42,824 bases of DNA from Lentisphaeria bacterium. Lineage in GTDB: Bacteria > Verrucomicrobiota > Lentisphaeria > Victivallales > Victivallaceae. The notes below the pieces were generated by a model. It searched no databases. It was given only the letters and a program-made list of their open reading frames with translations, and was not told where the DNA came from. The stretch lies in NCBI GenBank assembly GCA_017508555.1, contig JAFVYP010000226.1:1-42824 (forward strand). The letters are read 5' to 3'. A program made the position numbers and the translations under genes. This document shows positions 14,156-34,912 of the stretch, piece by piece. Each line of letters starts with the position of its first letter. Position 1 is the first letter of the stretch.

Positions 14156-14398
14156 ATGGAAAACAAAAAAGAAATCTTCGCTGATGGCATCGGTCAGATC
14201 CATTTCGTCGGCGGCATGGTCCGCTTTGATTACGTCACCCTCCAGCCCGGCAAGGACGGCGATGCTCCGACTGCCGAAGGCAACGTCCGTATCGTCATGC
14301 CTCCTCAGGGCTTCCTGGGTGCTTTCAACAGCATGCAGCAGCTGATCGACAAACTGCTGGAAGCCGGTGTGCTCCAGAAGAACGAAGCTGCCAAGTAA
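14156..14398 (+). CDS. Conserved-looking 80-residue small protein beside giant LEPR-XLL gene
   Basis: A soluble 80-residue protein with no signal peptide or membrane segment. AAGGAA lies 7 bases before the ATG. The layout is two beta-strand segments (IGQIHFVGGMVRFDYVTLQP), a variable loop, a third strand with RIVMPPQGF, and a C-terminal amphipathic helix (SMQQLIDKLLEAGVL). The strand-strand-RxVMxPQ-helix layout recalls DUF3467-type small proteins, but that is a weak resemblance by eye. The codons used are uniform and C-ending, like those of highly expressed genes nearby. It has its own promoter and is cut off from the giant gene by a strong terminator at 14744-14803. I infer a cytoplasmic partner, for example a chaperone-like factor for the giant protein. 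This rests on position only. Confidence 0.75.
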   Translation: MENKKEIFADGIGQIHFVGGMVRFDYVTLQPGKDGDAPTAEGNVRIVMPPQGFLGAFNSMQQLIDKLLEAGVLQKNEAAK

Positions 14399-14436
14399 TC
14401 TGCTTTAAGCAGCTTTTCTGCAAGGGATAGAATTGT

Positions 14437-14706
14437 ATGGAAAAACACGGTTACAGCTATATCGCACATGCGCCTGACTGGGCAGTTTCTCTGCCTGGGG
14501 TGGGGTGTGTTCCTGCGGTGGGAGAACCGTGTTTTTCCGTCCCTGCATCCAGACTTTTTGTCGGCAGGATCATTTGGATCGCCGGCATGTTCGAGATTGC
14601 GGTGAAACGTGTTCTGCGTTCAGCGGAGCGTAAGTGTTTCCCGATAGTTAAATATATTTATACGCGCGTGAGCGTGCGCAAAGCGATTTGCTGTTTCAAA
14701 CTGTAA
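14437..14706 (+). CDS. Doubtful 89-codon frame in the gap before the giant gene
   Basis: The gap 14399-14897 holds this frame, a terminator and a promoter. AAGGGAT lies about 9 bases before the ATG, but the translation looks random: five cysteines, no repeated or family-like motif, and a mix of hydrophobic and basic residues. It could equally be a non-coding transcript that runs from the small gene to the terminator at 14744. A short palindrome CTGCTTTAAGCAG at 14400-14412 follows the small gene's stop codon and might be a weak terminator. Confidence 0.2.
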   Translation: MEKHGYSYIAHAPDWAVSLPGVGCVPAVGEPCFSVPASRLFVGRIIWIAGMFEIAVKRVLRSAERKCFPIVKYIYTRVSVRKAICCFKL

Positions 14707-14743
14707 CGGGATTGCCGCAACTATGAAAAAAAACGTGAAAAAC

Positions 14744-14897: not shown

Positions 14898-17800
14898 ATG
14901 GCGAAGAAAATGTTGAGAAAACAGCGGATAGCGATCCAGAAGCTGGAAGAGCGCGTGCTTTTCGATGCTGCGGGAGCTGCGGAGATCGTCGATGCGGCGG
15001 CTGAGGCCGAAGCTGCGGCGCAGGAACAGGAGGCTCAGGAGCAGGAAGAATCTGCGGAGGAAGATGAAGAGCTGCCTGTTGAACAGGTTGCTCCCCCGGA
15101 AGAGGCTGCTGTCGGCAATGATGATGCTGAAAATGATGCCGGAAGCGGCGAAGAGGCTGCGGCAGAGGCTGAGGGTGAAGAGGCTGAAGTCCTGACGGAT
15201 ACCACGGAATTTTCCGGTGAAGTTGCCGATGCTTTCGCTGAAGCTGACGGTGAGGATTTTGCCTCTGATGATATTTCTGCCGCTGATGCGGATGATACGG
15301 ATGCAGCGGATTTGATCGAAACAGAAAGCTCTGAAGATGAAGCTGATGCAGAAGCTGATGAAAGTGTTCTGGCTGAAGAGGCTGACGCTGATGTTTCCGG
15401 AGAAGAGGCTGCTGATGACGAGATCGCCTTCACCGATGCTTTTGAAGCCGACAAGATCGAAGTTGAGCAGGAGGAGTCCCGCGAACTTGTGATCCTGAGT
15501 GACTACATCAAGGACAAAGAGACCATCATCTCTCAGCTGGATGAAAATACCGATGTTCTCATTCTTGAAGATGATGTCAATCCTCTGGATCAGATCAATG
15601 AGTATCTGGACAGCAAAGAGGGTGTGAAATACGATGCCATCCATGTTGTAAGTCACGGTAATGCCGGATATTTTCTGCTGAACGATGCCATCGTCGATGC
15701 GGATGCCGTTGCTGCGGATCCTGCCAGCTGGAAAGCCATCGGCGAACATCTGACCGATGACGGCGACATCATGATCTACGGCTGTAATGTGGCTGCCAGT
15801 GATGACGGCAAAGCCATGATCGCCAATATCGCCGAACTCACCGGAGCGGATGTGGCCGCCTCTGTGGATAAAGTCGGTTCTGCCAATGACTGGAGTCTTG
15901 AGTACAGCTACGGCATCGTTGATACGCAGAACGTCGTTATCAACGGCGCTGATTACAGTTTGGAATCCTATACGGTGGTCGAAGCCGGTGCGGCTGTTTT
16001 CGGGCCCGGCCAGACGTATGAGGGATTTACTATTGACGGCTCCGGACAGTTGCTCGACAAAGAAAATAAACTCGTTTCTGGTGTCGGTACTTTGGAGTGG
16101 GTGTTCGGTCAGCTCAGTTCTGCGGAGGATGATGTCGTTATCGTCGACTCCCGATATATTACCGGTGATGATATCGTATTTACCGGAGATTATACTTTCG
16201 GTTCTCTTTGGGGTGAAACGGAATTTGTTTTTAACGCCTTTACTGCAAATGGGATCGATGTGACCTTCAGCGGTAATCTCACCGTCAACAGTGATCTGGT
16301 CTTTTCCGGTGGTGTCGGTAATGTGACTTTTACGAAAGATCTGACCGTTACCGGCAGTTCATTCTCACTGGCTTCCGGCTATGGAACGATCTCTTTCGGA
16401 GGCGATGTCATTATCGGTGATCTGAGTGATAAAGCGCTCGCCGGAGCGGTTGATTTTTCCACCGGCAGCGATGCTGGATTTGACTTTACTGAAACGTATG
16501 GAAATACGCTCAGTGTCGGCATTAATTCCACCTTCAATCTGACGGTCGAGCTTGAGGACGAAGAGTCAACGACGGATCTTTATCGGGTGATCACTGTTGC
16601 CGAGGGCGGTGTCTGGGGACTTTACGGTGATTTGATTATGCGGGTCAACGATGTCGGCACCGGTACTGTTTTTGAGCTTCGTGATGTGTATCAGGGCAAT
16701 ACCCACGTGTACGGCGAAGTCCATGGAGATGCCACGCTGATCTTTGCCAATAATCTTGAAGAGACAGATCTTCAGGGCGGCGGCCGGATCTATATGGAAG
16801 ACGGCGTGGTCCGTTATGAACTTGGCGGTGCAAACGGTTTGAACAATGATACTTTGGCCGCCCGGGTCTATCAGGGTGCTTACGGCACACTGGGCGTGTT
16901 TCTTGGAACTGAAGCCCAGGAAACGTTTACCGTTGAAGATACCTATTTTGATCCTGAAGTCAGAAATGTCGGTGTGTTCCAAATCATTTCAGTCGATCGT
17001 GATTATGATGGAGAAGCTGATTATTTCTCGACGGGTACGATCAACATGGATGGTGCCTTCAACAATGCCATCTTCAGAGGCCGCCACACCACCGTTGATT
17101 TTGAATTCGGTACGACGGTTGATTTTGTCTATGACTCCAACAGTTATCAGGATATTCTCGGCGGTAACTATTACGGATTGACGATCGTGGGAACGGAGAT
17201 CCGTAATCTGACCAATAATCTGACTGTCGGAACGGATTCCGGCAAGGTCGATTTCGCATTGGCATTGAAACTCGGAGATTATTTCGGGTACGATGGCTTT
17301 ATGAAATTGGGAACAGTTCTCAATGTCAACGGCTATAATGTGACGTTTTTCGGAGAGACTCAATACGGCGATTCCGGCGAAGGTGAGATCCGTGCCGACG
17401 GCGGTACCGTTACCTATAATATAAGCGGCAACCATAACAGCAATGTATTCTACAAGGGCAACTACAATAATTTGACTGTCCAGGCTGTGCCCAGTTACTT
17501 CGGTACGGCTTATGAGACCTTTTATAACGCGAATGTCGGATGGGCCCAGATGGCCGGTTATACCTTGCCTGAGCCCGATCTGTACGGAGATGGGACTTTG
17601 ACCTTTGACATGAACCGTGATGTTGATGTCAAAGGAAGGTTTGTGGTCGTTTCTCTTGATGCAGATATTTCCAGCTCCAAATTTGAATCGGTATATCTGG
17701 AGATGGGAGGTCTTGGATCTGTTTCTCTGGGATATCAGAATGCGTTCGATGTGACAGTCAGCGCCACTGTCGGCAACATCGGTGCGCTTCTCCTTCAGGA

Positions 17801-20800
17801 TGCCAATCTGTCATTTACAGGCAATGTTCTTGGCAATATCGGTTCGATCACTGCCGTGAGAAGTGAGACTTTTGAACGGACTGCAGCCGGGGGATATCTT
17901 GCCGGCGCCAATGCCAACGGAACGCCTCAGGGGCTTCCAGACGCTCCTCTTGCGCTTACCTTCAATACGGCTCTTGCCCGTGTGGGAGGGCTTTCCGTTA
18001 CCGGTTATGATGTCTTTTTCAATAACGATGTCGTTCGGATCGGTACAACGGCCGGCAACCCGGCCATTGTGGCCGATGTGGCCCGTGTTCTGAACGGTCC
18101 CAACAGTTATCATTATGTCGTTTCCAATGTGACCTTTGCAAAGGATGTGGAGATCATCGGTCAGATCACCATGAACAACGCGGCTGACCTGAGAAGTGTT
18201 TTGAACTTCAAGGGCAACACTTCAGGAGATGCCCGGGTCGATATCATGCGCGGTCAGGTCAATTACCATTCCACTGTGGATCAGAAGGTCTTTACCGGAA
18301 ACTACGACCAGTTGAACATTCTGGGAGCCGGAACCAAGACTGTTGAGGATGATGTGACTGTCTATGGAGATTTCTTCGGCAGTACCTCTGAGATCGTTCT
18401 GAACGGCGGCACGTTCCAATTTTCCCGTTTCACTGCCAGTACAGGTACAGAGCCCAACCGTCCTGACTTTGTCGTCAACAGCGGAGCGACGCTGCTTTTT
18501 GAGCAGTCGCAGACAGAGGGCGCCATTGATTTCTACGGTTCCATCACCGTCAATGGAACGGCAGCAAATGCCGGTGTCGTCAGTTTTGATGCCAGTGGCA
18601 GATATCACGGTATCGTGACCATTGGCGAGTACGGTTCCATGGCGGTCAATGCGAATGATGTTGTTCTTTCCCATGTGGTCAATCATGGAGAACTTTCCTT
18701 CACCCGTCCTGTGACCATCAGTCTGCTGCACAACTACGGCGAAACGACGATCGGCCATACCCAGGTGAAGATGGATGTCTATAACCACGGTACGGGAAAT
18801 CTTATTTTCAATCTCGTCAATAAACCGGCAAACGGCGCTGCGTTCCTCTATAAGTTTGAACGCGGCGAAGGTGCCGCCTGGAATGCCGGAACCACATACA
18901 ACACCGGTGATGAAGCCACGCTGGGCAGCGGCTGGGTCGCGCAGCAGAATGGCATCACCGGTATCGAACCCGGTGTGGAATATTGGTCGGAACTGGATGA
19001 TACTGTCTGCCCGGCTTATTCCAACGTCCAGACCTACAAAGCCGGTGATCTTGTCAAAGTCGGCGGCAATTACTACGTGGCCGCCGGGGATATCGCTGCC
19101 GGTCAGGAGCCCGGTGTCTCTGCCCTCTGGTCGCAGATCCAGAATTACGATGCCGCAGAGAGCTACGTTGTCGGCAATTATGCTGTCCATAACGGCGAGC
19201 TTTACAGTGCAGTTACTGACAACGGCGGTGCGCATGCTGCGGTCACTCCCGGCGAGACTTACTGGTTAACGCTTGCTGAAACGGCAACAGCCAACCGTCT
19301 TATCAACGGCGGTACGATAACGGTCAGTGACGGTACGCTCGAATTGTCCGCGTTCACCCAGGGGGACAAGTCTGCCGCCAACGGTCAGTGGCATTTTGAC
19401 GATATCAGTTATGTCATCAACCGCAACGCTGTTACCGGACGTTACGGCACACTGATCGTTGAAACCGCTTCCACTGCGCTCAATTCCAATAACGGACTGA
19501 GTGCTGAACAGAGAAGCTTCCTGGGCGATATCAGCAACTACGGATACTTCTTCCTCAACACTGTTGCTGATGACACCTATACTTTTGCCGGTTCTGTCAC
19601 CAATCATAATGGCAGTGAATTTGTTATCCAGAGTGCTGACAAGGTGGTCTTTACCGGCGCTCTGGAACACAACGGACTGCTCTACACGACCATTGAGGGA
19701 GCAGACGGTCCTGAGCTGCGTTTCAGCGGTGCTGTTTCAGGAGACGGCACGATTGCCGGACCCAATGGAGAGGGCTATAACGGTCAGGTGACCTACGATG
19801 CCACTTCCAGCGCCCAGCGCATCATCAACGGCGTTTACAACAATACCGTCAAACTGGAAGGCAACAGCAAGAGTGTCGGCGGTCACGTCGAGTTCAACGA
19901 TACGGTGACTCTCGGCACCACGATCTTTGAAACGGACGGCCGTGACGGAGAGATCTTCTTCAATGCGGCAACAGCCAGTTCTGTCGGACTTTCCGGACGT
20001 TTTGACGGCGGCGTGGATGTGGTCTATACCGATGACGCCCGCACGATCTTTGAAGGCAGTTACGGCAATCTTGAGATCATTTCCACGACGGCCCGGAATA
20101 ATGTTGAAGTCAATCTGACTGTGTTAGAGGATCTGACCCTTTCCGGAACGATCTCCTTCGGCGGCAATACGGCAACGCCTCCGAAACTGGTCGTTGCCGG
20201 AAATATGGCTCTGCTGGCAGGAAGCGTTGTCACCATCGGCGCCAGCCGTGAACTGCGCGATGCGACGATCACAGGCAGCGGCGATTTGACCATCACTTCG
20301 ACCCGGCTTTTCAATGTCAGCTTTGATGCAGAAGGCTATCTGGGACGGGTGACTTACAATGCCGGAGAAGGTGAGCAGAACATCATTGCCAGCACCTATG
20401 TCGGCGGATTGACTCTGACAGGCGGAACCAAGATCATTGAAAAAAATCTGACTGTTTCCGGATTGTTTGCGTCTTCCGCCAGTGATGTGATCATCCGCGG
20501 AGGCGCGACTGTCAATGCGGAACAGATCCAGGTTGATTACATTACCGTCAAATACGGTGCGACGCTGGCTCTCAATCTGGTCGGCAATGATAACCGTTTG
20601 GGCAATGCCACGCCCGCCAACGGCCTTGTCCGCATGGGCGGTACGCTGACTGTCCGCGGTAAAGTCGAGGGAACCGAAGAGCTGCGTATTTACCGCTGGG
20701 AAGATCTTGCCAGACCCGATGAAAACGGCAATGATACGATCACCGATGCAAGCCGGATCGATGTGCTTGCAGCCGGAACGCTCAGTATTTACAGCGGCCG

Positions 20801-23800
20801 GGTGTACTTTGATGGAATGCCCGAAACGAATGGCGGCATTTACGCTTCTGTGATGGATCTGACGGAAGAGACCGGCGCCTGGCAGGGATATGAGGATCCC
20901 AACACCCGTCTGAAAAATTTCTGGATCACGATCTCTGAAAACGTTTCAACGCTGGATCTTACGGGATATGGCATCAACAGCAAATTCCTGATCAAACATG
21001 GTGCGACTCTGACAGTCAACGGATTTGATGAACTCAACGGCAACGCTTTGATCATTTCAGACACGATCCAGGCTGTCCGTATCGAGGATGGCGGTGTGCT
21101 GCGTTTCCTGAACAGCACCTTTACTGCCGGCGGAACAGGGTACACGAAAGATTCCTGGACCGTTACCAATCTGATCGTGGAAGGCGGCGGTACAGTCCTT
21201 GTCGGTTCCACCGATTCTTCCGCAGAGGCTGTGACATTGAATGTGACCAATGCCCATCTTGTCGGCGGCGAGAATGTGATCGAAGCTCTCCGGGGCAACG
21301 GCAGCGTGAACTTCACCGGAACCACCGAAGGCAGCGGCCGTGTCAGCATGCGTGTGGAAGAAGATTCCAACTCACGTGTGACTTATAGCGCAGCTGTGGA
21401 TACCGTTTACGGCGGTACTTACAAGAATCTGACGATCAACGGCTATGATGCTCCCGCAGAGGGTGAGGCTCTTGCCAAGGTCGTTACTGAAGATATCCGT
21501 GTTGACGGCAATTTTGAAGCTGCCGGAAAAGTCACGATGACCAATTCTGTTACTTTCAACGGCACTGTTACAGATGCCGGTAATGATACCCGGTTGTCTT
21601 TGAGCGGCTCTGTTTCCGGTATCGGAAGTTTCAATTTCGATGCTGAAGAAAGTATCGTGTACTACAACAGCGATACGGCTCTTCAGAACGTTCTTCAGGG
21701 AACTTACAGTAACCTGACTCTGGTTGCGGAAAACTATACGGTCGCCAATCCCAAGGTCTTTTCCGTGATCGATGTGGAAGCTGCTGATGAGACCCTGACT
21801 GTCACCGGAAAACTTTCGCTTCCCTCTCAGGTGATCTTCGGCACTGCCGACCGCGCAGAAGCAGAGCAAGTCTCTCTCAACTTCAACGGAGCCAATGAGG
21901 GCGACGGTCTGGTCCGGTTCGGCGCCAATTCTCTTGTGACTTACAATAATGCGGCTTCCCGTGTGTTTGCCGGTGTCTATAATGACTTGACCTTCTCCGG
22001 AACGGGCGGGACGGCTGAAACGCCCAATACCTACAGTTTTGCAGGGAATACCCGGATCGACGGTGAGCTGACGCTGGATACAAATGCCAAGATCACTGCC
22101 ACCGGTACGGTGGATCATCATATTACTGTCACCTTTGCCGGCAGCACGCAGGGCGCGGGAGCGCTTCACTTCAGGGACTATACAACGGCGGTTTACAGAG
22201 AAGGCGTTACGGTTATTTCCGGAACCTATTATAATCTGACCCTTGAAGGGGCTGAGGATGATCTGGGGGCTGTTACGGTCACCGGTGATGCCCACTTTGA
22301 AAAAGAGGTCCACGGAGCCAGCGACTGGATCTTTGCCGGAACCATTTCCGGTGACGGCAGGATCATCCATACGGGAACAGTGACCTATGCAGACGGATTT
22401 TACGGTCCCGGTTTTTCCGGCGATTACAACAACATCGTCATCAATGCCGGCAATAACAGCAGTAAGAATCCGCTGGGTGTGACTTTCAGCGATGTGAACA
22501 TCGGCGGCGATGTTTCCGGTATCGGCAAGGTGACCTTCACCAAACAGGTCGGTCTGGTTTATGATGATGAAAACGATGTCAACGGACACCGCGGCCAGAT
22601 CAACAGTGAGATCCTGACCGTTGTTTACGATTGGGGCGTGGGTGATTCTCTGCCTGAAAACTGCATCATGACAGGTACTTACGGTACTCTGATCCTTGTG
22701 GGACACGGTTTGAACTTTACGCCCGGTTTGAGCGGTCAGCCTTACACACATACCGATCACGGCACCTACCGTCTCGACGGTGATGTCACGGTCGCTGTGA
22801 AGATGGAGATCGGCCGTTATGCCAAACTTTCCTCCAACAACAACAATGAGTTTACCCTGACCATCAACGGTTCTACCAATGCCAGTCTGGGCGACTTTGA
22901 ACTTTTGGAGGATGAAGAAGATCTCTGGTTTGAAGATTACATGCCCAACAACGGTGTTGTTGATATGGGTACCGGCAGTACCATTGTTTACGGCAACTCT
23001 GCCGAGATCTTCGGAGGAAACTATTACAATCTGACTTCCAGCGGCGACAAGGATCTGCAGATCAGAAACATCACTGTCGATGGTCTTGCCAGCTTCTCCA
23101 ACGGCGTTGTCCGCGGTGCCGGACGGTGGGTGTTCAACGGAACGGCTGCTACCGTCAGTGCCTCCTTTGAAAATGTCATGACGGAATATCTCTGGAATAA
23201 TTACTATAATAACGACGATGTGCAGACGCCTGAGTACTCCATTGATTCCGGATTCGACTGGGATACAGAAAGCTACGTCGATATGGAATACCAGTATTAT
23301 GACGATGGTGCATTTGACTGGGATTATGTTGAACCGGCTTATGTGAACGGTTTCCAGTACAATCAGGTGGTGTACGGTGAAAACTTCACCGGAGGCGGCG
23401 CCGCGCTGGATGGTAAATATACCAATCTTGTTGTCAATTCTGCCGCCGGTATCACTTTCGGCAATATAACGCTTTACGGAGAACTTTCCGGAACAGGCAA
23501 TATCAATTTTGCCGGAACAAATACCTTCGGCGTCAATGAGATCAATGGCTGGCGTGATGACTACAGCAGTTCCGCCTCAGCCAACATGAGCGGAGACAGC
23601 ACTGTTGTTTATACGCTGGCCAACAGCAAGATCCTCGGCGGTGTTTATCAGAATCTGACTCTTGAACACTCCCATGTGCTTGACAGCAGTTTTGCTGTCC
23701 ACAAGATGGCGACCCTGAACGCCACCCAGACCCTCGGAACCGATGTGACCATCAGCTTCCTCGGTACGACCAATGGCGCAGAGGGCGGCCGTCTTGAACA

Positions 23801-26800: not shown

Positions 26801-29800
26801 TCTCGGATGGAGTCAGTTTACTGTCAACTCCAAGTACAACCAGTTCACCGGGTTCTTCACCAACAGCAGTCATTTCTACATCAACGGCTCTGAAAACTCC
26901 TTCAGCGATATTGAGACCCGTTACTTCATGTATATCAATGACACCAACTCCTTCGGAACCATCACCAACTATCAGGATCTCAAGATCACCAATCCGGGTG
27001 CTGTGGTCCTCTCTCTGGTGAACGAGGGCGGCAAGGTCTGGATCACCGGCGATGCCGACGGATTCGTCTTTGAAAATGAATTGACGGTCAACGGCGGATT
27101 TGTTTCCATCGAAACAGAGCTGGGCGTTCCGATCGCTTCCGATGTGACGATCACACGCGAAGGTGAACTGACCTTCTCCGCAACGAACGATATCGACGGA
27201 AATGTGGAGATCACTTCCGGTTCCCTCACCTTTGCCGGTGAAGCGGGCAACTCCAATATCCGCGGAGAGGTCTCCATCGGTGCTGCGGGTACGCTGAATG
27301 TCTCCACCAAAGAGAATTCCGTCAACTTCTTTGCCAACATCGACAATGCCGGCAAGTTCGTCGTTGACGGCAGCATCACTGTCGATGATGCTGCCCGGAT
27401 CACCAACAGCGGCAGCATCACCATTGCCAAACAGTCCGAAATCGCCGGAGATCTGGCCAATGAGACTACCGGTAATATCATCGTTGCCGCCGGTGCTGCG
27501 GGAACTGTGTTCAATACCGTGAGCAATGTCGGCTCCTTCACCAATGCCGCCAACAACGTCACCTACAAAGGCAAATTTGAGAACAAGGGTACGTTCATCA
27601 ACAATAACGGTATCACTGGCGTCCTCTTTGAGAACGAGTTTGTCAATGACGGCTTGATGAAGATCGACGGCGAGATCACCGTTCAGGGTCTCTTTACCAA
27701 TACTGCCTCCGCAGAGGGAACCGGTCTCTATGTTTACGGTCTGGCCGATTTCAACGAAACGGTCAATACCGGAAGCATCTATCTTGAACCCATCACCGGC
27801 AAACATGCGGCTACGGTCAAATTTGGAGATATCACCAATGACGGCCTTATCACCTCTCTGAATGACAGCCGCAACGCAGGCGATATCTACTTCAAGGGTC
27901 TCACCCTCGGCAACGGTACCATCGAAGGTTTCACCGGTACACTCTACTATGTCTATACCGGAACGGAAGAGATCAAACAGACCTTCTATGAAAACAGCAA
28001 GTACGGTGAAGTGACCGTTTATGTGGGCAACAACTCCGTTAATCCTGATGCTGATTACAGCAAGGGCCTGGTGACCATCGACCGCGACGGTCTCACCTTC
28101 AAGGCGCTGATCCTTGACGGCGGCAACCTGGCTATCGGTGATGAGGATACGCACATCAATGTCGATGCGTCCAGCTTCATCGAAAAAACACCCGGTACCA
28201 TCACCGTCAATGCCGGTTCCACTTTGAGCTTCAGTAATGAAGAGGGAACGGAATTCACAAGCAGTCTTCACAACTACGGTCTGGTGACCAGCGTGGGAGA
28301 TCTGGTCCTCATGGGAACCACCGAAGGCAACGGTCTGGTCTATATCGGTGAAGGCAAGTCCATCACCTACGGCTATGACGGAGAGGGTGAACAAGTTTTG
28401 TTTGCCTTTGCCGAAGGCAGCGCCACCAATCTGATCATCCAGGGCAGCGACAAGGCCATCGCAACGGATATGACCATTGCCAAACTGACCAACAACGGTT
28501 CAGATATCAATGTCCGCGCCGGCGCCAGCCTCACCCTCGGCGAAATCGACGGAACCGCTGCCGGTGTGGACGGATTCACCATCACCACACAGGCCGCCGT
28601 TGCCGATGATCCCGAAACGGAAGCTGATGAAACTCGGGCTGCCGGTATCCTCAATGTGACTGCCGGAACGCTCAACGCCGCTGTTGAAAACTACGGTTCT
28701 TTCAACGTCGCGGCGGCAGGCCTTGCAGTTGCTCTCGGCGGAACCGTCAACAATTACGGTGTGCTCAATGCCTCCGCTTCCGCCGTTGAAGGCGAAAACG
28801 GTGTGGTCAACGGTTCCATCAGCTTCAACGGCAAAGTGACCAATAAGGCCGAAGGAACATTTGTCCTCTCCGGAACGGAAAAGGATACCATCTTCTTTGC
28901 CGATCTTGTCAACGAAGGCAATATCGAACTGGGCGTGGGTATCAGCTGGGAAAAACTTGCCAATGCCGGAACCATCACGATCGTTTCCGATCAGATCTTC
29001 AACGCCGGTTTGAGCAATACGGAAACGGGTATCATCAAGATCGCAGAAAACGTCACCGTGACTATCGCAGAAGCTGTCACGCTTGACGGAACTGTTGAGG
29101 TCAGTGCCAATGCGGTCCTCAAAGTCTCTGTCAGCGGCGTACTTGATGATCCCAACGCAGAAATGCCCAACATCACTTCCGGCGGAGCCAGACTCAATGC
29201 CGTCATCAATAACGGCTTGATCGATGTGACCGGAGAAGGCGCTGACAAACGCGCTGTTCTGAGCATCAATACCATTGATAATGCCAACGGCAGGATCAAT
29301 GTGGGCGGTTTCGGTGATCTCCTTGTCACTGATAAAGAGATCGACGTCATTCAGGGCGAGGTCGAACTGGATGCCGACGGCCGGATCTATACCTACGGTA
29401 AACTGGAGCATGTCAGCATCGTTGTCACCACCAGCAAAAAACTCTCTGAAATGGGCAACGGCATTTATCCTGCCGATCAGGATAAATACAACCACATCGG
29501 TTTTACCGCCAAAGGTGAGGAAGTCGTTTTCACCATTGATGTTGACAGCGGCGATGTTTACTCCTTCAAGGCGATCGACGGTGCGGAACTTGCCTTCACC
29601 GGAAATGATCTTCAGATCGACGGTATCGTCAGTGTTGCTGAAGATGCCTCCATAACCGTCAGCGAGGGCAGCTCTGTCACCTTTACCGACACAGTGACCG
29701 TTGACAGCACTCTGGAAAACAAAGGCACTGTCACCATTGATTCTGCCGACAGCAGCATCAATGCGCTGGACAACAGCGGTACGCTGACCACTGCCGGCAA

Positions 29801-31355
29801 TATCGGCGATGTGATTGCCAACAGCGGCAGCATCACCGCCGACGGCAATATCGGCGATGTGGCTGCCAACAGCGGCAGCATCACCGCCGACGGCAATATC
29901 GGCAATGTGGCTGACAACAGCGGCAGCATCACCGCCGACGGCAATATCGGCGATGTGGCTTTCAACAGCGGCAGCATCACCGCCGACGGCTCTGTGGGCA
30001 ATGTGGGCGGCAACGTTGAAGGCGGTCAGATCACCGCATCTGTCATCGGTGACGTGACCGATAACGCCGGAACCATCACTGCCGGAACGGTCGATCCTGC
30101 TACCGGCGAGTTCATCACCGATCCTGAAACCGGCATGATCGTTGCTGACGGAACCATCGGCAATATCGGCAGCAATGCCGGAAATATCGCAGCCGGAACC
30201 ATCGGCAATGTGACCGACAACAGCGGTACGCTGACCCAGAACGGCGATAACGGCAGCATCGGAGATATCACAGTCAACAGCGGCACTATCACCGTCAACG
30301 GCGATGATACCGTCATGGGCAATATCAGCAGCAATGAGGGTCAAATCACCGTCAACGGCGACGGCGTGACCGCAGGTTCCGTTATCAACGGTGAAGAGGG
30401 AACGCTCAGCGTCAACGGCGGTCTGGCGGTGGATACGCTTGAAAACTACGGCAAGACTGAAATCGCAGAAGATGCTTCTCTCGGCGCTCTGGTCATCAGC
30501 AATACCGGTGTCATCGACAATAAGGGTCTCCTCGGCACTGAGAACGAAGACGGTACCGTTGATCCCATTGATGTTGTGAGCAACACCGGAACGCTGAACA
30601 ATGACGGAGAATTCCATACCGATGTCCTTAACAATGCAGGAACTCTGACCAACAACGGTTCTCTGGCTGCTGAAGTTGTGGATAACTCCGGTTCCTTTAC
30701 GGATAATGGAGAAGTGGCCATCAGCATCTTCAACAATTCCGGAGATGCTGAACTCAACGGCAGCGGCAAGGTCGGCACCCTGATCAACTCCGGCAATGTC
30801 AGTGTCGGCGGCAGCGGATACAGCATCACCTCCGCCACGAACAGCGGCAGCTTCGATCTGGGCGGCTCCGGCAACAGCATCAGTCAGATGAACAACACCG
30901 GAACGCTGAACTTCAACTCCGGCAACAACATCGGCAGTCTGAACAACTACGGTGCCGGTTTTGTCAGCAAGGACGGTGTGATCTGGATGATGGCGACCGA
31001 TGAGGGAATGAGTCCTGAATTCTTCTCCGACGGCAAGAATCTTAACTTCAGTGTTCTCTCTCTGCTGACGGCCCGGGATCTGGATGCTATGAGTCTGGAT
31101 GACAGCTTCAGCTCCAAACTCTTCCGTCTTGCGCCCGGACGTTACGGCACTTTGGCTGATTCCGGCGCCCGGGTCGTTGATCTGGGCTTCCTCGGCGGAG
31201 ATACCGATATGATCGATATTGATGCCGCCGTTGATGAAATGCTCCACGGCAGCGCACCGGCCATCGACGATGAAGAGATCATGGACGTGCTGGCTGAAAG
31301 CAGCGGTTTTGAAGATGACTTCGATACCGCTCTGGATGAGATCATCAACGACTGA
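14898..31355 (+). CDS. Giant LEPR-XLL/DUF4347-type beta-repeat surface protein, 5485 aa
   Basis: The start at 14898 has GGGGAGGTGG before it; a TTG start at 14823 would overlap the promoter. Order of parts: a basic N-terminus with an LEPR-XLL-like motif (residues 16-26, LEERVLFDAAG); an acidic Glu/Asp/Ala linker (27-195); a DUF4347 domain (about 196-350) with IHVVSHG (H253) and IMIYGCNVAA (C296); about 5000 residues of Gly/Asn/Thr-rich beta-repeat sequence with recurring VxY...GxYxNLTxxG; three chitin-binding-like modules (1326-1456); a Tyr/Asp-rich insert (about 2761-2824); 16-residue NSG repeats near the end; and an acidic C-terminus ending in DDFDTALDEIIND. There is no classical signal peptide, autotransporter barrel, LPXTG, PEP-CTERM or terminal membrane helix, so export must use another route. 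I infer adhesion or glycan binding. It is followed by two export-type membrane protein genes. Confidence 0.9.
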   Translation: MAKKMLRKQRIAIQKLEERVLFDAAGAAEIVDAAAEAEAAAQEQEAQEQEESAEEDEELPVEQVAPPEEAAVGNDDAENDAGSGEEAAAEAEGEEAEVLTDTTEFSGEVADAFAEADGEDFASDDISAADADDTDAADLIETESSEDEADAEADESVLAEEADADVSGEEAADDEIAFTDAFEADKIEVEQEESRELVILSDYIKDKETIISQLDENTDVLILEDDVNPLDQINEYLDSKEGVKYDAIHVVSHGNAGYFLLNDAIVDADAVAADPASWKAIGEHLTDDGDIMIYGCNVAASDDGKAMIANIAELTGADVAASVDKVGSANDWSLEYSYGIVDTQNVVINGADYSLESYTVVEAGAAVFGPGQTYEGFTIDGSGQLLDKENKLVSGVGTLEWVFGQLSSAEDDVVIVDSRYITGDDIVFTGDYTFGSLWGETEFVFNAFTANGIDVTFSGNLTVNSDLVFSGGVGNVTFTKDLTVTGSSFSLASGYGTISFGGDVIIGDLSDKALAGAVDFSTGSDAGFDFTETYGNTLSVGINSTFNLTVELEDEESTTDLYRVITVAEGGVWGLYGDLIMRVNDVGTGTVFELRDVYQGNTHVYGEVHGDATLIFANNLEETDLQGGGRIYMEDGVVRYELGGANGLNNDTLAARVYQGAYGTLGVFLGTEAQETFTVEDTYFDPEVRNVGVFQIISVDRDYDGEADYFSTGTINMDGAFNNAIFRGRHTTVDFEFGTTVDFVYDSNSYQDILGGNYYGLTIVGTEIRNLTNNLTVGTDSGKVDFALALKLGDYFGYDGFMKLGTVLNVNGYNVTFFGETQYGDSGEGEIRADGGTVTYNISGNHNSNVFYKGNYNNLTVQAVPSYFGTAYETFYNANVGWAQMAGYTLPEPDLYGDGTLTFDMNRDVDVKGRFVVVSLDADISSSKFESVYLEMGGLGSVSLGYQNAFDVTVSATVGNIGALLLQDANLSFTGNVLGNIGSITAVRSETFERTAAGGYLAGANANGTPQGLPDAPLALTFNTALARVGGLSVTGYDVFFNNDVVRIGTTAGNPAIVADVARVLNGPNSYHYVVSNVTFAKDVEIIGQITMNNAADLRSVLNFKGNTSGDARVDIMRGQVNYHSTVDQKVFTGNYDQLNILGAGTKTVEDDVTVYGDFFGSTSEIVLNGGTFQFSRFTASTGTEPNRPDFVVNSGATLLFEQSQTEGAIDFYGSITVNGTAANAGVVSFDASGRYHGIVTIGEYGSMAVNANDVVLSHVVNHGELSFTRPVTISLLHNYGETTIGHTQVKMDVYNHGTGNLIFNLVNKPANGAAFLYKFERGEGAAWNAGTTYNTGDEATLGSGWVAQQNGITGIEPGVEYWSELDDTVCPAYSNVQTYKAGDLVKVGGNYYVAAGDIAAGQEPGVSALWSQIQNYDAAESYVVGNYAVHNGELYSAVTDNGGAHAAVTPGETYWLTLAETATANRLINGGTITVSDGTLELSAFTQGDKSAANGQWHFDDISYVINRNAVTGRYGTLIVETASTALNSNNGLSAEQRSFLGDISNYGYFFLNTVADDTYTFAGSVTNHNGSEFVIQSADKVVFTGALEHNGLLYTTIEGADGPELRFSGAVSGDGTIAGPNGEGYNGQVTYDATSSAQRIINGVYNNTVKLEGNSKSVGGHVEFNDTVTLGTTIFETDGRDGEIFFNAATASSVGLSGRFDGGVDVVYTDDARTIFEGSYGNLEIISTTARNNVEVNLTVLEDLTLSGTISFGGNTATPPKLVVAGNMALLAGSVVTIGASRELRDATITGSGDLTITSTRLFNVSFDAEGYLGRVTYNAGEGEQNIIASTYVGGLTLTGGTKIIEKNLTVSGLFASSASDVIIRGGATVNAEQIQVDYITVKYGATLALNLVGNDNRLGNATPANGLVRMGGTLTVRGKVEGTEELRIYRWEDLARPDENGNDTITDASRIDVLAAGTLSIYSGRVYFDGMPETNGGIYASVMDLTEETGAWQGYEDPNTRLKNFWITISENVSTLDLTGYGINSKFLIKHGATLTVNGFDELNGNALIISDTIQAVRIEDGGVLRFLNSTFTAGGTGYTKDSWTVTNLIVEGGGTVLVGSTDSSAEAVTLNVTNAHLVGGENVIEALRGNGSVNFTGTTEGSGRVSMRVEEDSNSRVTYSAAVDTVYGGTYKNLTINGYDAPAEGEALAKVVTEDIRVDGNFEAAGKVTMTNSVTFNGTVTDAGNDTRLSLSGSVSGIGSFNFDAEESIVYYNSDTALQNVLQGTYSNLTLVAENYTVANPKVFSVIDVEAADETLTVTGKLSLPSQVIFGTADRAEAEQVSLNFNGANEGDGLVRFGANSLVTYNNAASRVFAGVYNDLTFSGTGGTAETPNTYSFAGNTRIDGELTLDTNAKITATGTVDHHITVTFAGSTQGAGALHFRDYTTAVYREGVTVISGTYYNLTLEGAEDDLGAVTVTGDAHFEKEVHGASDWIFAGTISGDGRIIHTGTVTYADGFYGPGFSGDYNNIVINAGNNSSKNPLGVTFSDVNIGGDVSGIGKVTFTKQVGLVYDDENDVNGHRGQINSEILTVVYDWGVGDSLPENCIMTGTYGTLILVGHGLNFTPGLSGQPYTHTDHGTYRLDGDVTVAVKMEIGRYAKLSSNNNNEFTLTINGSTNASLGDFELLEDEEDLWFEDYMPNNGVVDMGTGSTIVYGNSAEIFGGNYYNLTSSGDKDLQIRNITVDGLASFSNGVVRGAGRWVFNGTAATVSASFENVMTEYLWNNYYNNDDVQTPEYSIDSGFDWDTESYVDMEYQYYDDGAFDWDYVEPAYVNGFQYNQVVYGENFTGGGAALDGKYTNLVVNSAAGITFGNITLYGELSGTGNINFAGTNTFGVNEINGWRDDYSSSASANMSGDSTVVYTLANSKILGGVYQNLTLEHSHVLDSSFAVHKMATLNATQTLGTDVTISFLGTTNGAEGGRLEHHETQNTVIYGEDAAVFRGTYYNLSFDSGVIKDGMFGYDTAKGAYDATAIAVYGALDIVYTDTKELQGEYAFTMYGTAGSNLHSFKHEGGEVIYGHAFGNEDPLVGANVIAGEYHDITFKGGVDADHKIVYTAFDDVTINGHSTIERYAIFAAQGSSDIIVAGVTFHQTPGTSGYNRVWINESGSESLYYKDGRWVRISADGTIIDQTNGSFTDPFAAEWENDTSISGNMTTISFLGTTNAREVASVPGGPMIAGVAMSEYSTTKYAPGADMYEGSYYRFEVVGGTDVLFSDLPDTSRFEVTNELIVDIADGYYFVFDTSVSENFKLSVTIHGDIWYTNAYLGGDEVNPGHQPLGGSFAGSIRLGGDYTVDHSYSGTYDGDVLLSGVTITGDSKYIDAAALRGTLTIADSSYDGADFKLLVDSELTERPAVRYSGDSSIMALYTVDEATGNFVATAYDELILDGNLSVGRGNLVEVANKLTFMENATLTIEGDFILGSEAQKAVLEAAKPTTNMIAAQGTSEENVNFYLKGGSVLPYIVNQGNGHFDIVVENNASFSGIYVTGGTTNITAGNNATFNDILSSGGVLNLTAGKDAVFNYNIQVGSTPEGGAGIVNIHADSARLKGSGIYVEGGQLYLDLGTADSSVTSTIANDVKVSGAGALFTVAGFNVSFSGFVNVINSAEMRITGSNIAFSNDVLNYNVGTIGYNTTTGSGYKWIHDYLFNDAEYYEFYQNKPQSVIVPATAKNPGTITIDTTGKVTFSELVVSGGDFNIVNGDVYFNAQFAIADGTFSITGGNVFFKNDVYVSAVYGDGVASSEYTLLSITGGNVTMSGSLYNWVRIPVGYYGTSISPVLQYNGPFYLSDNKIVLRASLNVSEVYIAGDAHVTIVENVSNMGLWGTTGFVLAGNAEVTIGGNLANYSDDTMQFWSGTGVKYDYLTNLMGFSSGFGEAGTTHSLQPARYSTSAAAIFLVDEAARLQVTGETWNGATYTRGTAWGKTSGALGWSQFTVNSKYNQFTGFFTNSSHFYINGSENSFSDIETRYFMYINDTNSFGTITNYQDLKITNPGAVVLSLVNEGGKVWITGDADGFVFENELTVNGGFVSIETELGVPIASDVTITREGELTFSATNDIDGNVEITSGSLTFAGEAGNSNIRGEVSIGAAGTLNVSTKENSVNFFANIDNAGKFVVDGSITVDDAARITNSGSITIAKQSEIAGDLANETTGNIIVAAGAAGTVFNTVSNVGSFTNAANNVTYKGKFENKGTFINNNGITGVLFENEFVNDGLMKIDGEITVQGLFTNTASAEGTGLYVYGLADFNETVNTGSIYLEPITGKHAATVKFGDITNDGLITSLNDSRNAGDIYFKGLTLGNGTIEGFTGTLYYVYTGTEEIKQTFYENSKYGEVTVYVGNNSVNPDADYSKGLVTIDRDGLTFKALILDGGNLAIGDEDTHINVDASSFIEKTPGTITVNAGSTLSFSNEEGTEFTSSLHNYGLVTSVGDLVLMGTTEGNGLVYIGEGKSITYGYDGEGEQVLFAFAEGSATNLIIQGSDKAIATDMTIAKLTNNGSDINVRAGASLTLGEIDGTAAGVDGFTITTQAAVADDPETEADETRAAGILNVTAGTLNAAVENYGSFNVAAAGLAVALGGTVNNYGVLNASASAVEGENGVVNGSISFNGKVTNKAEGTFVLSGTEKDTIFFADLVNEGNIELGVGISWEKLANAGTITIVSDQIFNAGLSNTETGIIKIAENVTVTIAEAVTLDGTVEVSANAVLKVSVSGVLDDPNAEMPNITSGGARLNAVINNGLIDVTGEGADKRAVLSINTIDNANGRINVGGFGDLLVTDKEIDVIQGEVELDADGRIYTYGKLEHVSIVVTTSKKLSEMGNGIYPADQDKYNHIGFTAKGEEVVFTIDVDSGDVYSFKAIDGAELAFTGNDLQIDGIVSVAEDASITVSEGSSVTFTDTVTVDSTLENKGTVTIDSADSSINALDNSGTLTTAGNIGDVIANSGSITADGNIGDVAANSGSITADGNIGNVADNSGSITADGNIGDVAFNSGSITADGSVGNVGGNVEGGQITASVIGDVTDNAGTITAGTVDPATGEFITDPETGMIVADGTIGNIGSNAGNIAAGTIGNVTDNSGTLTQNGDNGSIGDITVNSGTITVNGDDTVMGNISSNEGQITVNGDGVTAGSVINGEEGTLSVNGGLAVDTLENYGKTEIAEDASLGALVISNTGVIDNKGLLGTENEDGTVDPIDVVSNTGTLNNDGEFHTDVLNNAGTLTNNGSLAAEVVDNSGSFTDNGEVAISIFNNSGDAELNGSGKVGTLINSGNVSVGGSGYSITSATNSGSFDLGGSGNSISQMNNTGTLNFNSGNNIGSLNNYGAGFVSKDGVIWMMATDEGMSPEFFSDGKNLNFSVLSLLTARDLDAMSLDDSFSSKLFRLAPGRYGTLADSGARVVDLGFLGGDTDMIDIDAAVDEMLHGSAPAIDDEEIMDVLAESSGFEDDFDTALDEIIND
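15486..15950 (+). other. DUF4347 domain-coding segment with possible His/Cys dyad
   Basis: Residues about 196-350 of the giant protein match the DUF4347 pattern: a hydrophobic strand ending in SHG (H253, codon 15654-15656), a spacer of 42 residues, then a strand ending in YGC (C296, codon 15783-15785), TGADVAAS, and DWSLEY. The strand-HG then strand-GC layout is that of caspase-like clan CD peptidases. Activity is an inference. Confidence 0.7.
16800..28450 (+). repeat. About 20 copies of a VxY-GxYxNLTxxG protein repeat
   Basis: A degenerate motif recurs at irregular spacing, typically about 80-130 residues but sometimes far longer: a strand with VTY or VVY, 8-15 variable residues, then an aliphatic-x-GxYxNL-x-[LIV]-x-G strand pair. 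Clear examples are FYKGNYNNLTV (about 17445), VFTGNYDQLNI (18290), IFEGSYGNLEI (20050), VYGGTYKNLTI (21410), VLQGTYSNLTL (21690), VFAGVYNDLTF (21965), VISGTYYNLTL (22210), ILGGVYQNLTL (23635) and VFRGTYYNLSF (23845). It is diverged at DNA level. This is the type of repeat seen in long beta-helical surface proteins. Confidence 0.75.
18870..19275 (+). other. Three tandem chitin-binding-like (CBM5/12, ChtBD3) modules
   Basis: Residues about 1326-1456 of the giant protein break the beta-repeat pattern with three units of about 42 residues: AWNAGTTYNTGD...PGVEYWSEL, AYSNVQTYKAGDLV...PGVSALWSQI, and NYDAAESYVVGNYA...PGETYWLTL. Each has an aromatic start, TY or SY plus [AV]G, a GxxYxA-like middle, and a terminal P-G-x-x-x-W, as in CBM5/12 domains of chitinases. 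Binding is inferred from this pattern. Confidence 0.6.
29772..30011 (+). repeat. Five tandem 48-bp repeats inside the giant gene
   Basis: Units start at 29772, 29820, 29868, 29916 and 29964. The core of units 2-4 is nearly identical (AACAGCGGCAGCATCACCGC, then GACGGCAATATCGGC) and encodes NSGSITADGNIGDVAA-type 16-residue repeats. Units 1 and 5 are more diverged. The near-identity at DNA level points to recent expansion. Confidence 0.9.
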
Positions 31356-31429: not shown

Positions 31430-32821
31430 ATGGAAAAACAACCTGATATCAGAGAAGTTTCCGCAAGGCTCAAGGCGCTGGGGGTGATCCTCAAGATCGG
31501 CCGCGAGATGAGCGATGCCGCAGATTTTACTTCTGCTGCCGCTATCGCCGCCAACAGTCCGGAGGTTTTGCTGCACTTCAAACGCTCCGCGATTTTTGAA
31601 TCCGCTGACGGCAAGATCCGTCTGGCCGGAGAGTACGGTCTTTTTGAGCCCAATCCCCACAGCGATACAGCCGCGGCTCTGACAACAGTCTGCCGCAGTC
31701 TTGATTTTATCGAACGGGGCAAAGGGGTCATTCTCAAAGTTGCAGAAGAGAACGAACAGCTTTCAGATGCAGCTCAGGAGGCGCTGGCCTCTCTGCTGGG
31801 CGAAGAGGGGGAAATGCTGGCTGTCAGGCTGCCTGTTCCCGGATTTGCTCAAAACGCCTCTTACGATCTCTTTTGGCTCATTGAATTTCCCGGAGCCGTG
31901 CCGGGATATGTGCCTCCCTCCGTCAATCTGCTGGCGGCGGGGATCAGCTCCGCTTTGTTTTCGCAAAAGTTCTGCCGCAGTGCATCGGCGGCTCAGAAGA
32001 TCCGGCATCATATATCCAAATGGAAAGCGGCCTTGATCTTTGCTGCGGTGCTGCTTGTTGTCATGTTCATTCCTGTCCGTGAGCAGACCAATGCTGAGTT
32101 TGTTCTGCGGGCTCCGGAAATAACGGGCGCCTATGCTCTTTTTGACGGTCCTGTGGCCAACTGTTTCAAACAGGATGGCGAATTTGTCAAAAAGGGCGAG
32201 ACCGTTGTGGAATACGACACCAGTCAGCTCCGTTTCCGTCTGGATTCCGCCCGCAATAAACTGGCGGAGATCCAGAAAGAGTATGATCTGGAAAACAGTG
32301 CCTCCTTTTCAGACCGGGAGCGTCTGGGACGTGTCCCTCTGCTTGCCGCCCGTCTTGACAGCGCCAAAGTGGATGTGAAAGAGGCGCAATGGTATCTGGA
32401 TCATGCCCGCATCACAGCTCCCGCCACAGGGATCCTTGCGCTGGCTGACGGCCGGGCTGAACTGCTCAAAAACCGCGTTCTCCGTACCGGAGACAGGATC
32501 TTTGATATCTACGGCGGCAAAGGGATGACAGCCGAGATCCGCGTCAATGAACGGGACAGCTCCATTCTGCTGGATAAGATCACCGCCTCCTGTTTCCTCT
32601 ACACCCAGCCGGAGCTGGAGATCAAAACAAAGATCATCGACATCCGCAGTTATCCGGAAAAGACCGAACAGAATGTCTGGTGCTACAAAGTTCTTGCCGG
32701 GCTTGAAAGCAGTCTGCCCCTGCGTTACGGCATGCGCGGCGTTGCCAAGATCCGCGGCAAACGGATCGCCCTCGGATACATGCTCTTCAAAAATGCAGTC
32801 CTCTATCTGAGGTGGCTCTAA
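31430..32821 (+). CDS. HlyD-type membrane adaptor with GAF-like cytoplasmic N-domain
   Basis: A 463-residue inner-membrane protein. Residues 1-195 are cytoplasmic and look like a GAF-type fold (HFKRSAIFE, IERGKGVILKV, LFWLIEFPG). One transmembrane helix spans about 199-216 (KAALIFAAVLLVVMFIP). The periplasmic part has two lipoyl half-motifs (about 231-262, FVKKGETVVEYD, and 327-336, ARITAPATGI) around a coiled coil (about 263-325), then a beta-barrel. This is the membrane fusion protein layout of type I and related exporters, but a 195-residue cytoplasmic domain is unusual. The start at 31430 has only a weak GGGG upstream, so translation may be poor. The next gene begins directly after its stop codon. 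The role is inferred as export of the giant protein. Confidence 0.8.
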   Translation: MEKQPDIREVSARLKALGVILKIGREMSDAADFTSAAAIAANSPEVLLHFKRSAIFESADGKIRLAGEYGLFEPNPHSDTAAALTTVCRSLDFIERGKGVILKVAEENEQLSDAAQEALASLLGEEGEMLAVRLPVPGFAQNASYDLFWLIEFPGAVPGYVPPSVNLLAAGISSALFSQKFCRSASAAQKIRHHISKWKAALIFAAVLLVVMFIPVREQTNAEFVLRAPEITGAYALFDGPVANCFKQDGEFVKKGETVVEYDTSQLRFRLDSARNKLAEIQKEYDLENSASFSDRERLGRVPLLAARLDSAKVDVKEAQWYLDHARITAPATGILALADGRAELLKNRVLRTGDRIFDIYGGKGMTAEIRVNERDSSILLDKITASCFLYTQPELEIKTKIIDIRSYPEKTEQNVWCYKVLAGLESSLPLRYGMRGVAKIRGKRIALGYMLFKNAVLYLRWL

Positions 32822-34912
32822 GTGGCAGCTCCCGGCGATATCTCTCAGATCAGAACGGGAACGCTGCGCAGGGATATTGAGATCATTCCCCCCGGGCGTC
32901 ACGGGGCTTATCCCATGATCTTCGATCCCGCCGCGGAGAGCTATTATAAACTGACTGTTCCCGCGTGGAAAATGCTTTCCCGCTACGGCAGGGATTGTAC
33001 GGTTTTGGAAATGTGCCGGCGTCTCCAGCGGGCCGGACTGCCTGCCGAACCGGAAGAGGTCCTTATCCTCAAACAGTTTCTTTTGCAGAACAATCTTCTG
33101 ACGCCCGATGCGGATACTTTTGCGCAGCAGGCAGACAACCGGCGCAATATGAAATCCAAAGGTTTGTGGCTCAAAGTGGCTTCGGCTTATTTGTATTTCA
33201 AACTGCCGCCGATCCATCCTCAGCCCTTCATCGACCGGGTGAAACCCTATATCGGATTTATCGGATCCAAATATTTTTTCCGTCTGCTGCTGATCCCTGC
33301 CGTGATCGGTTATATTCTTGTTTTCCGTCAGCTGCCCGCCGTGACCGCTGCACTGGCGGCCTCTTTCACCTGGGCCGGACTGGTCAAATATTTTTTCGCC
33401 ATCATTTTGCTTAAAATCATCCACGAAGGCGGACATCTGGCAGGCAATATGCGCTTCAACTGCCGGGTGAGAGCCATCGGTATCAGTGTGATCTTCCTTT
33501 ATCCGCGTTTTTTCAGTGATACCACAGACAGCTGGCGTCTGCCCCGCAGGCAGCGTTTGCTGATCGACGCAGGCGGCCTGCTCAGTGAAATGCTCTGCGG
33601 CGGTCTGGCGGCTCTGGCCTGGTGTTATCTGCCGCCGGGCAATCTGCAATCCACCATGTTCTTTATTTTTGCCGTTTCCACAGCCAGTACCATTCTGGTC
33701 AACGGGAATCCTCTGATCCGTTTTGACGGTTACTATATCCTTTGCGATATCCTCGGCGTGGAAAACCTGATGCAGCGCTCGGGAGAGTACATCAAGCAGC
33801 TCAACCGCCATTACCTTTTCGGTCTGGGAGCCAAACCCGAAGAGGAACGGCCGTTTCTCATGTTTGCTTTCGGTATTGCCGCCTTTATTTACCGTTTTCT
33901 GCTCTACACCTCCATTATCCTTGTGATCTACAACAGCATGGTCAAGGTGGTAGGGATCTTTCTGCTTTTCATGGAGGTACTGACCATTTTCATCCTGCCC
34001 CTTTACCATGAGGTGCGTGTGGTGGGGATGCTTTCCAAACGGGCGGGGCGCCGGGCGAATCTCACCTTTGTTTTTGTGCTGCTTGCGGCGGGGGCCTTTG
34101 TGCTGTTTTTTCCTCTTTCCTGGCGCAGCACTCTGCCGGGAGAGATCCGGAGCGCCTCAAGCGTGCTTGCGGCTCTTCCCGAAGCCGGTTATGTGACAGA
34201 GAATATGACCGGTCAGCCTGTTCCTGTCAAAAAGGGCGGTGTTCTGCTGGCTCTTGAGTCTCCGCTTCTGGAAATGGAACTTTTGAGGTGCCGGACAAAG
34301 CTGGAGGAGGAACTGCTTCTTTTTGACCAGCAGCGCGCCTCTGAAAAGACGATGGGCGACAGTATGCTGACGCTCAAGCGGATCCAGACGCTCCGGCGTT
34401 CAGTGGATGAACTTGTCAGCCGCCGGAAACAGCTGACGTTCCGCTCGGGAACCGACGGTGTGTTTGTGCCTGTCTTCAGTCATTTGTCCCGGGGCGCTTT
34501 TCTGCCCCGGGGGATGTTGGCAGGGGTCATCCACGCCGGCAGGATGCGGGTGGATGCTTATGCGCAGGATCACCAGCTCAAACGTCTCCGCCCCGGCATG
34601 AAAGTCCGTATAAAACTCAAGGATACGCTGGCCGATGCTGCCGGAACCATTGAGCGGATCAATCCGGTCCCCGTTACTTTTACCGACTCGCCGCTGCTGA
34701 ATGTTTCAGGCGGCGATATCCCCGTCTTTCCCGTTCCCGGCAAGAAGGGGGAGTTCACGCCGGAACACCCTGTGTTCAGAGTTGAGATCCGTCCCGATGA
34801 GCCGCTGCCCTTCCAGAGCGGCCGGACACTCCGCGTGACCGTTGAAAACCGCGAGGTGCTTCTGGATAAACTTGTTTCTTCAGTCCTCTATTTCTTCAGA
34901 AGCGAGTTTTAA
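32822..34912 (+). CDS. PqqD-M50 peptidase-HlyD fusion membrane protein
   Basis: A 696-residue polytopic protein. Residues about 10-100 resemble a PqqD-like peptide-binding domain (YKLTVPAWKMLSRYG). The M50 site-2-protease-like core carries HEGGH at 201-205 and NPLIRFDGYYILCD (D302-G303), with several membrane helices between about 150 and 440. The C-terminal 250 residues are a periplasmic HlyD-like arm: a half lipoyl segment (VPVKKGGVLLALESPLLEME), a short coiled coil, and a beta-barrel (LKRLRPGMKVRIKL). The start is GTG at 32822, directly behind the hlyD-like stop codon, with GAGGTGG at 32808-32814 inside that gene, so the two are translationally coupled. Known relatives sit beside HlyD adaptors. 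The substrate is probably the giant protein; whether it cleaves or only transports cannot be told. Confidence 0.85.
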   Translation: MAAPGDISQIRTGTLRRDIEIIPPGRHGAYPMIFDPAAESYYKLTVPAWKMLSRYGRDCTVLEMCRRLQRAGLPAEPEEVLILKQFLLQNNLLTPDADTFAQQADNRRNMKSKGLWLKVASAYLYFKLPPIHPQPFIDRVKPYIGFIGSKYFFRLLLIPAVIGYILVFRQLPAVTAALAASFTWAGLVKYFFAIILLKIIHEGGHLAGNMRFNCRVRAIGISVIFLYPRFFSDTTDSWRLPRRQRLLIDAGGLLSEMLCGGLAALAWCYLPPGNLQSTMFFIFAVSTASTILVNGNPLIRFDGYYILCDILGVENLMQRSGEYIKQLNRHYLFGLGAKPEEERPFLMFAFGIAAFIYRFLLYTSIILVIYNSMVKVVGIFLLFMEVLTIFILPLYHEVRVVGMLSKRAGRRANLTFVFVLLAAGAFVLFFPLSWRSTLPGEIRSASSVLAALPEAGYVTENMTGQPVPVKKGGVLLALESPLLEMELLRCRTKLEEELLLFDQQRASEKTMGDSMLTLKRIQTLRRSVDELVSRRKQLTFRSGTDGVFVPVFSHLSRGAFLPRGMLAGVIHAGRMRVDAYAQDHQLKRLRPGMKVRIKLKDTLADAAGTIERINPVPVTFTDSPLLNVSGGDIPVFPVPGKKGEFTPEHPVFRVEIRPDEPLPFQSGRTLRVTVENREVLLDKLVSSVLYFFRSEF

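Follow-up and report, generated by a model that had tools for sequence, protein, structure and literature searches.

We analysed a 42,824-nucleotide stretch of DNA from a Lentisphaeria bacterium (hereafter the window), the complete contig C170 of a 2.46-Mb source assembly (G000) that is 77% complete, and conclude that it probably encodes both the cargo and the inner-membrane half of an export module of the HlyD/TolC type that is dedicated to giants with an N-terminal tag resembling the LEPR-XLL motif. The four genes of this locus, which encode a small protein of 80 residues (SP80), the giant cargo protein, a HlyD/MacA-type adaptor with a putative GAF-like domain, and a PqqD-M50 metalloprotease-HlyD fusion (hereafter the fusion), were found by an open reading frame (ORF) check where the initial annotation had placed them (Table 1).

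The reading of these genes as a dedicated module rests first on the co-occurrence of the fusion with tagged giants, a check that the initial annotation had proposed and that revealed a strong association in two phyla. Among 289 Verrucomicrobiota genomes the fusion occurs in 63 and DUF4347, a domain of the window giant, in 42, with 35 genomes holding both (Fisher 5e-21; the Fisher tests ignore the kinship of genomes, so p-values here and below overstate independence), and 18 of the 19 genomes that match the LEPR-8K model also hold the fusion (Fisher 2e-12). Of 274 Gammaproteobacteria, 19 match LEPR-8K, 37 have the fusion (tallied manually from the match list, with only matches covering the M50 domain taken as fusions), and 17 have both (Fisher 5e-15); apparent fusion matches in 260 of the 274 were mostly HlyD-only matches to the C-terminal third of the protein and were not counted. 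The link between the fusion and DUF4347 persists within the genus of the window (5/6 versus 1/15, p 0.002), and LEPR-8K matches were present in 27/29 named fusion genomes versus 0/14 control genomes. The recurrence of the association in two phyla and within one genus is a stronger argument than the exact p-values.

We fetched ~20 kb around Verrucomicrobiota fusion genes, together with 80 named loci from other genomes, built neighbour-gene profiles, and mapped these onto the fetched loci, many of which end at contig boundaries. The recurring set consists of a TolC-like outer-membrane efflux protein (OEP), a short HlyD protein (~250 aa), a GAF-HlyD adaptor (~450 or ~610 aa), the fusion, a SecA-like protein (~660 aa), and a giant with the N-terminal motif LExR-x-[LMF]-[LF]-[SD]. 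At least seven phyla contain this set, the named loci belonging, by their record titles, to Verrucomicrobiota, Planctomycetota, alpha-, beta-, and gammaproteobacteria, Desulfobacterota, Fibrobacterota, Omnitrophota, and Nitrospirota. At the named loci the SecA-like gene (72/80, in 58 cases directly after the fusion) and GAF-HlyD (72/80) were found most often, followed by the short HlyD (59/80) and the OEP (31/80). The tag motif was present in 34 of the 66 ORFs of at least 900 aa at fusion loci compared with 9 of 857 shorter ORFs, tagged cargo being mostly 900 to >10,000 aa long, and a tagged ORF lay within 6.5 kb of the fusion in 39/144 loci, many of the others extending beyond the fetched DNA. 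This recurrent gene adjacency, taken with the co-occurrence in two phyla, backs the earlier claim of a module dedicated to the tagged giant.

The SecA-like protein of these loci matches TIGR00963 (E 1e-163), yet it falls under every curated SecA cut-off, scoring 383–465 bits against SecA and SecA2 equivalog cut-offs of 725–1100, and it is not assigned to SecA2. It aligns with residues 13–612 of Bacillus subtilis SecA, which implies that both nucleotide-binding domains (NBD1 and NBD2) and the preprotein cross-linking domain (PPXD) are retained, and Pfam recovers all three; the protein stops before the helical wing, the two-helix finger, and the C-terminal parts of SecA. Walker A and B motifs are intact in 80/83 of these proteins.

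The type of tag follows the fusion. A quick maximum-likelihood tree of 161 fusions places 108 rows in clade A and 53, including the window, in clade B, with 98% support on each side in the SH-like approximate likelihood ratio test. All 18 rows with LF(D/E)-type tags fall in clade B, 24 of the 25 rows with L(S/A)-type (LLSA-type) tags fall in clade A, and the rows with a SecA-like gene also sit in clade A. Both clades occur in Verrucomicrobiota as well as in Gammaproteobacteria (for example, LEPRLLFDGAA in genome G569 and LEPRMMFDGAV in G507), so the tag type goes with the fusion rather than with the host. Since the two clades separated at the base of the tree in a single evolutionary event, the covariation is good evidence but does not count as many independent observations.

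The fusion is the core protein of the module. Its residues 69–401 match the NCBIfam model daptide_HExxH (E 6e-44), and its closest named relatives are the daptide and YydH/LiaK metalloproteases of ribosomally synthesized and post-translationally modified peptide (RiPP) pathways. Across 35 aligned homologues Pfam identifies Peptidase_M50 in 30, HlyD_3 in 22, and PqqD (PF05402) in 17; neither Peptidase_M50 nor PqqD was matched by Pfam in the window fusion itself. Among the 143 homologues longer than 650 aa, HExxH is kept in all and the second M50 motif, NPxxxxD, in 142. The AlphaFold model of the fusion (mean predicted local distance difference test score 84) contains a multi-helix membrane part followed by a C-terminal adaptor domain that matches MacA, ZneB, and MexA by fold, and, as judged from motifs and model, the fusion has the HExxH, NPxxxxD, and multi-helix membrane domain of an M50 site-2 protease. 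A search of solved structures with the fusion and SP80 as queries returned no match. The HlyD identity that had been proposed for the 463-aa adaptor was confirmed by a Pfam HlyD_3 match (E 2.4e-4) and by an AlphaFold model of MacA/MexA-like fold; the adaptor has one long membrane-spanning helix region. Its N-terminal domain is probably GAF-like, as suggested by Pfam GAF matches in 24 of 28 homologues and by how helices and strands succeed one another in the model.

The giant was listed as an ORF starting at TTG 14823; the better start is ATG 14898, which has GGGGAGGTGGGCT directly before it. DUF4347 (PF14252; 133 bits against a cut-off of 24.6, E 1e-38) is the sole Pfam domain above cut-off, the same scan finding no RTX domain, and neither a signal peptide nor an anchor was recognized in the window giant. 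Inspection of its N-terminus by eye revealed no hydrophobic segment; the protein begins with a basic start, continues with LEERVLFDAAG, and then enters a long acidic stretch. Amphipathic C-terminal tails like that of the window giant terminate most complete giants of its order, with a shared form close to F(K/S)xD(F/L)(E/D)xxL(E/D)E(L/M)(L/V)xA at the extreme C-terminus that is also seen at L075, L090, L093–L098, L100, L102, and L105. A C-terminal signal universal to LEPR-XLL giants was sought in distant giants and was absent from them, the tail being limited to the window's order.

Related tags also occur on short proteins. Four loci of family f19 (L077 2932–3763, L122, L134, and L136, from genomes G042, G054, G072, and G152) each encode two LESRELFAAA proteins of 110–176 aa, along with a radical SAM/SPASM enzyme, a free PqqD-like protein, GAF-HlyD, a short HlyD, and the fusion, and look like a peptide-modification cluster that shares the tag of the module.

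The initial annotation had stated that no ABC ATPase or TolC-like gene was within reach. This holds for the window, but not for the genome, where an OEP, a short HlyD, and a copy of the HlyD part of the fusion lie on contig C110 (L069 7556–10876) and a HlyB-type ATP-binding cassette (ABC) exporter paired with a type I HlyD lies on C88 (L294 5858–9941), the latter two matching the type I families TIGR01846 (E 2e-185) and TIGR01843 (E 3e-70). The nearest sister genome, G094, carries the same trio of OEP, short HlyD, and fusion HlyD-part copy on its contig C40.

From gene content, conservation, co-occurrence, catalytic motifs, and the covariation of tag with fusion clade, all of which are read from sequence, we infer the following putative mechanism. 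The GAF-HlyD adaptor and the fusion would form an inner-membrane platform that, with the short HlyD and the TolC-like OEP encoded on C110, would complete a passage through the envelope. The unfolded giant may reach the platform through its N-terminal LE(D/E)RVLF(D/E)AA tag, which the PqqD domain of the fusion would bind in the way that PqqD-like domains bind RiPP leader peptides, after which the M50 site would cut or free the N-terminal region of the giant. The motor of clade A is likely the truncated SecA that adjoins the fusion, while clade B would draw its energy from elsewhere, perhaps from an ABC exporter of the HlyB type, from the housekeeping SecA, or from a component not yet seen. A broader proposal, which we advance tentatively and with slightly less than even confidence, is that these loci represent a new Gram-negative secretion class in which a HlyD/TolC conduit is guarded by a PqqD-M50-HlyD gatekeeper that binds and cuts the LEPR-XLL tag and is driven in most lineages by a motor-only SecA in place of an ABC, RND, or MFS pump, the window representing a branch that lacks this SecA and uses a tag variant of its own.

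Several findings weigh against the proposal of a dedicated export module. The clade of the window lacks a linked motor; the truncated SecA is absent from its order, G000 and nearly all other members having one SecA_DEAD match, so that G000 holds a single SecA. The tag was called LEPR-XLL-like, and LEERVLFDAAG is indeed present, but the curated NCBIfam LEPR-XLL model NF012209 was matched neither by the window protein nor elsewhere in its genome, and the tag is thus a variant. Site-2 proteases cleave their substrates inside membrane-spanning parts, yet no transmembrane helix is obvious in the tag region. The kinship that inflates the Fisher values counts on the same side, as does the type I system found in the giant's own operon in four congeners, which implies that the fusion could be accessory to type I secretion.

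This last observation leads to the most serious rival explanation, in which the giant leaves C-terminus first through the ABC exporter, the type I HlyD, and the OEP, its amphipathic tail serving as the signal, and the fusion and GAF-HlyD only hold the tagged N-terminus at the inner membrane and cut it later, a functional counterpart of LapA retention and LapG release. The four congeners (G058, G097, G153, and G201) carry a single gene run in the order ABC exporter, type I HlyD, OEP, giant, short HlyD, GAF-HlyD, and fusion, with a giant tag of the form LE(D/E)RVLFEAA; the related ABC and type I HlyD pair on C88 of the window's genome and the C-terminal tail common to the giants of the order also fit such a route, and C-terminal RTX has been reported in a LEPR-XLL giant from Vibrio (PMC10868602). 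Against it, each of the 16 searched genomes of the window's genus has the ABC exporter, whether or not the genome carries the fusion, and the G153 copy comes after a second giant that has no tag. Nothing comparable was seen near the gammaproteobacterial loci, only 14 of 156 fusion loci have an ABC-like ORF, and the exporter was unmatched in six genomes that hold both the fusion and DUF4347 (G043, G049, G147, G150, G230, and G239; ten candidates scored in each). We consider tether-and-cut type I secretion unlikely. Because fusion-less congeners have the ABC exporter just as commonly and an untagged giant precedes it in G153, we also did not accept this exporter as the proven energy source; it may serve other giants. 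At this G153 locus (C45; L281/L306) the untagged giant, itself preceded by SP80, lies directly upstream of the ABC gene, and two giants flank one ABC-HlyD-OEP set.

A RiPP-like maturation system, in which the fusion and adaptors would modify or process tagged polypeptides with the LEPR region as leader and the giants would exit otherwise, is improbable. The daptide and YydH/LiaK relationship of the fusion points that way, as do the f19 loci with their short LESRELFAAA proteins and radical SAM/SPASM enzymes; outside these loci, however, the HlyD adaptors and the OEP are conserved beside the fusion and a modifying enzyme is not, and the cargo is mostly far from peptide size. Shared genomic islands or lineage effects, by which surface-protein and efflux genes would cluster without a functional link, are highly improbable even though genomes within a clade are related and large genomes commonly encode giants, adaptors, and OEPs, since the gene set is repeated across phyla, the association holds in two phyla and within one genus, and the tag goes with the fusion clade.

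The small protein had been proposed as a partner of the module. SP80 does recur beside the module, in nine loci from several families, and beside the ABC exporter, but a profile built from nine proteins matches 71 of the 90 genomes of the window's order, many of them without the fusion, and we rejected a role as dedicated partner while the recurrent linkage remains. It lies upstream of giants in the window and in G153, and on C88 a divergent SP80 precedes the ABC exporter by ~20 bp. The latter arrangement, in which the spacing between a divergent SP80-like gene and the HlyB-type ABC gene downstream of it is ~20 to 120 bp, was seen at L294 5533–8539 (G000:C88) and at G092:C119, G332:C384, G025:C10, G089:C95, and G061:C6, and four near-identical SP80 genes stand in tandem at L304 8579–9756 (G014:C10). 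In clade A a DUF3467 protein of SP80-like size is encoded directly upstream of GAF-HlyD in ~18 loci (L182, L187, L189, L192, L194, L195, L198, L201, L205, L206, L209, L210, L214, and others). SP80 may be a distant relative of DUF3467; profile-profile comparison of the two gave a probability of 10%, and one homologue matched at E 7e-4.

Table 1. Coordinates of the export locus features within the window.
Feature	Position	Strand	Basis
SP80, 80 aa	14156..14398	+	ORF call
Giant cargo protein, 5485 aa, ATG 14898 start	14898..31355	+	ORF and Pfam scan
Tag codons, LEERVLFDAAG (LEPR-XLL-like, LF-D type)	14943..14975	+	translation
DUF4347 domain	15486..15938	+	Pfam match
Tandem repeats, 48 bp (16 aa), near the C-terminal end of the giant	29769..30006	+	
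Acidic amphipathic C-terminal tail of the giant, FEDDFDTALDEIIND	31308..31352	+	
HlyD/MacA-type adaptor with putative N-terminal GAF-like domain, 463 aa	31430..32821	+	
PqqD-M50 metalloprotease-HlyD fusion, 696 aa	32822..34912	+	
HEGGH (HExxH) codons, M50 domain of the fusion	33422..33436	+	

Downstream of the module the window encodes members of the hisB, galE, exonuclease, PGA_cap, and ThiF families, which are apparently unrelated to it. A 1313-aa protein matching GH123_N, CBM9_1, and laminin-G-like domains (617–4558) and a DUF4434 protein (40882–41820) place carbohydrate-related genes on both flanks.

With type I secretion and tripartite pumps (HlyB-HlyD-TolC and MacAB-TolC) the module shares HlyD/MacA adaptors, a TolC-like OEP, co-operonic genes, and large cargo without a signal peptide; it differs in that its core is the PqqD-M50-HlyD protein, often joined by a truncated SecA, in its three adaptors, and in its conserved N-terminal tag. 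A review on tripartite and type I systems names only ABC, RND, and MFS inner-membrane engines (PMC8277102). The daptide and YydH-LiaK metalloproteases (NF041824 and NF058609) have a PqqD-like N-terminal part and an M50 HExxH core in common with the fusion, whereas the fusion adds a C-terminal HlyD domain, scores 150.7 against a cut-off of 300, and is accompanied by giants and not by short peptides. The clade A motor has the NBD1, PPXD, and NBD2 of SecA and SecA2, but is shorter, stays under all equivalog cut-offs, and is absent from the window's clade. Like the module, the LapA-LapG system handles a giant, repetitive surface protein, the N-terminus of which may first be retained and later cleaved, with the difference that the protease of the module is an M50 enzyme in the membrane; no LapG/LapD-type gene was found among the window genes scanned, the rest of the genome not having been searched for LapG.

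Planctomycetota, Verrucomicrobiota, and Lentisphaerae often encode giants of 5,000 to 20,000 residues, whose route out of the cell has received little study. We found no description of this gene combination in the open-licence literature, and a SecA motor apparently paired with HlyD/TolC parts is likewise undescribed in the open literature searched. The widespread and unexplained LEPR-XLL tag is now tied to a specific gene set, which is a candidate exporter for the cargo, and the presence of the complete set in named isolates makes direct tests feasible, cultured carriers of the set including Neptuniibacter caesariensis MED92, Massilia sp. Leaf139, and Dyella sp. OK004. If the SecA-like motor powers the module, these loci would constitute a new secretion class rather than a variant of the HlyD/TolC type.

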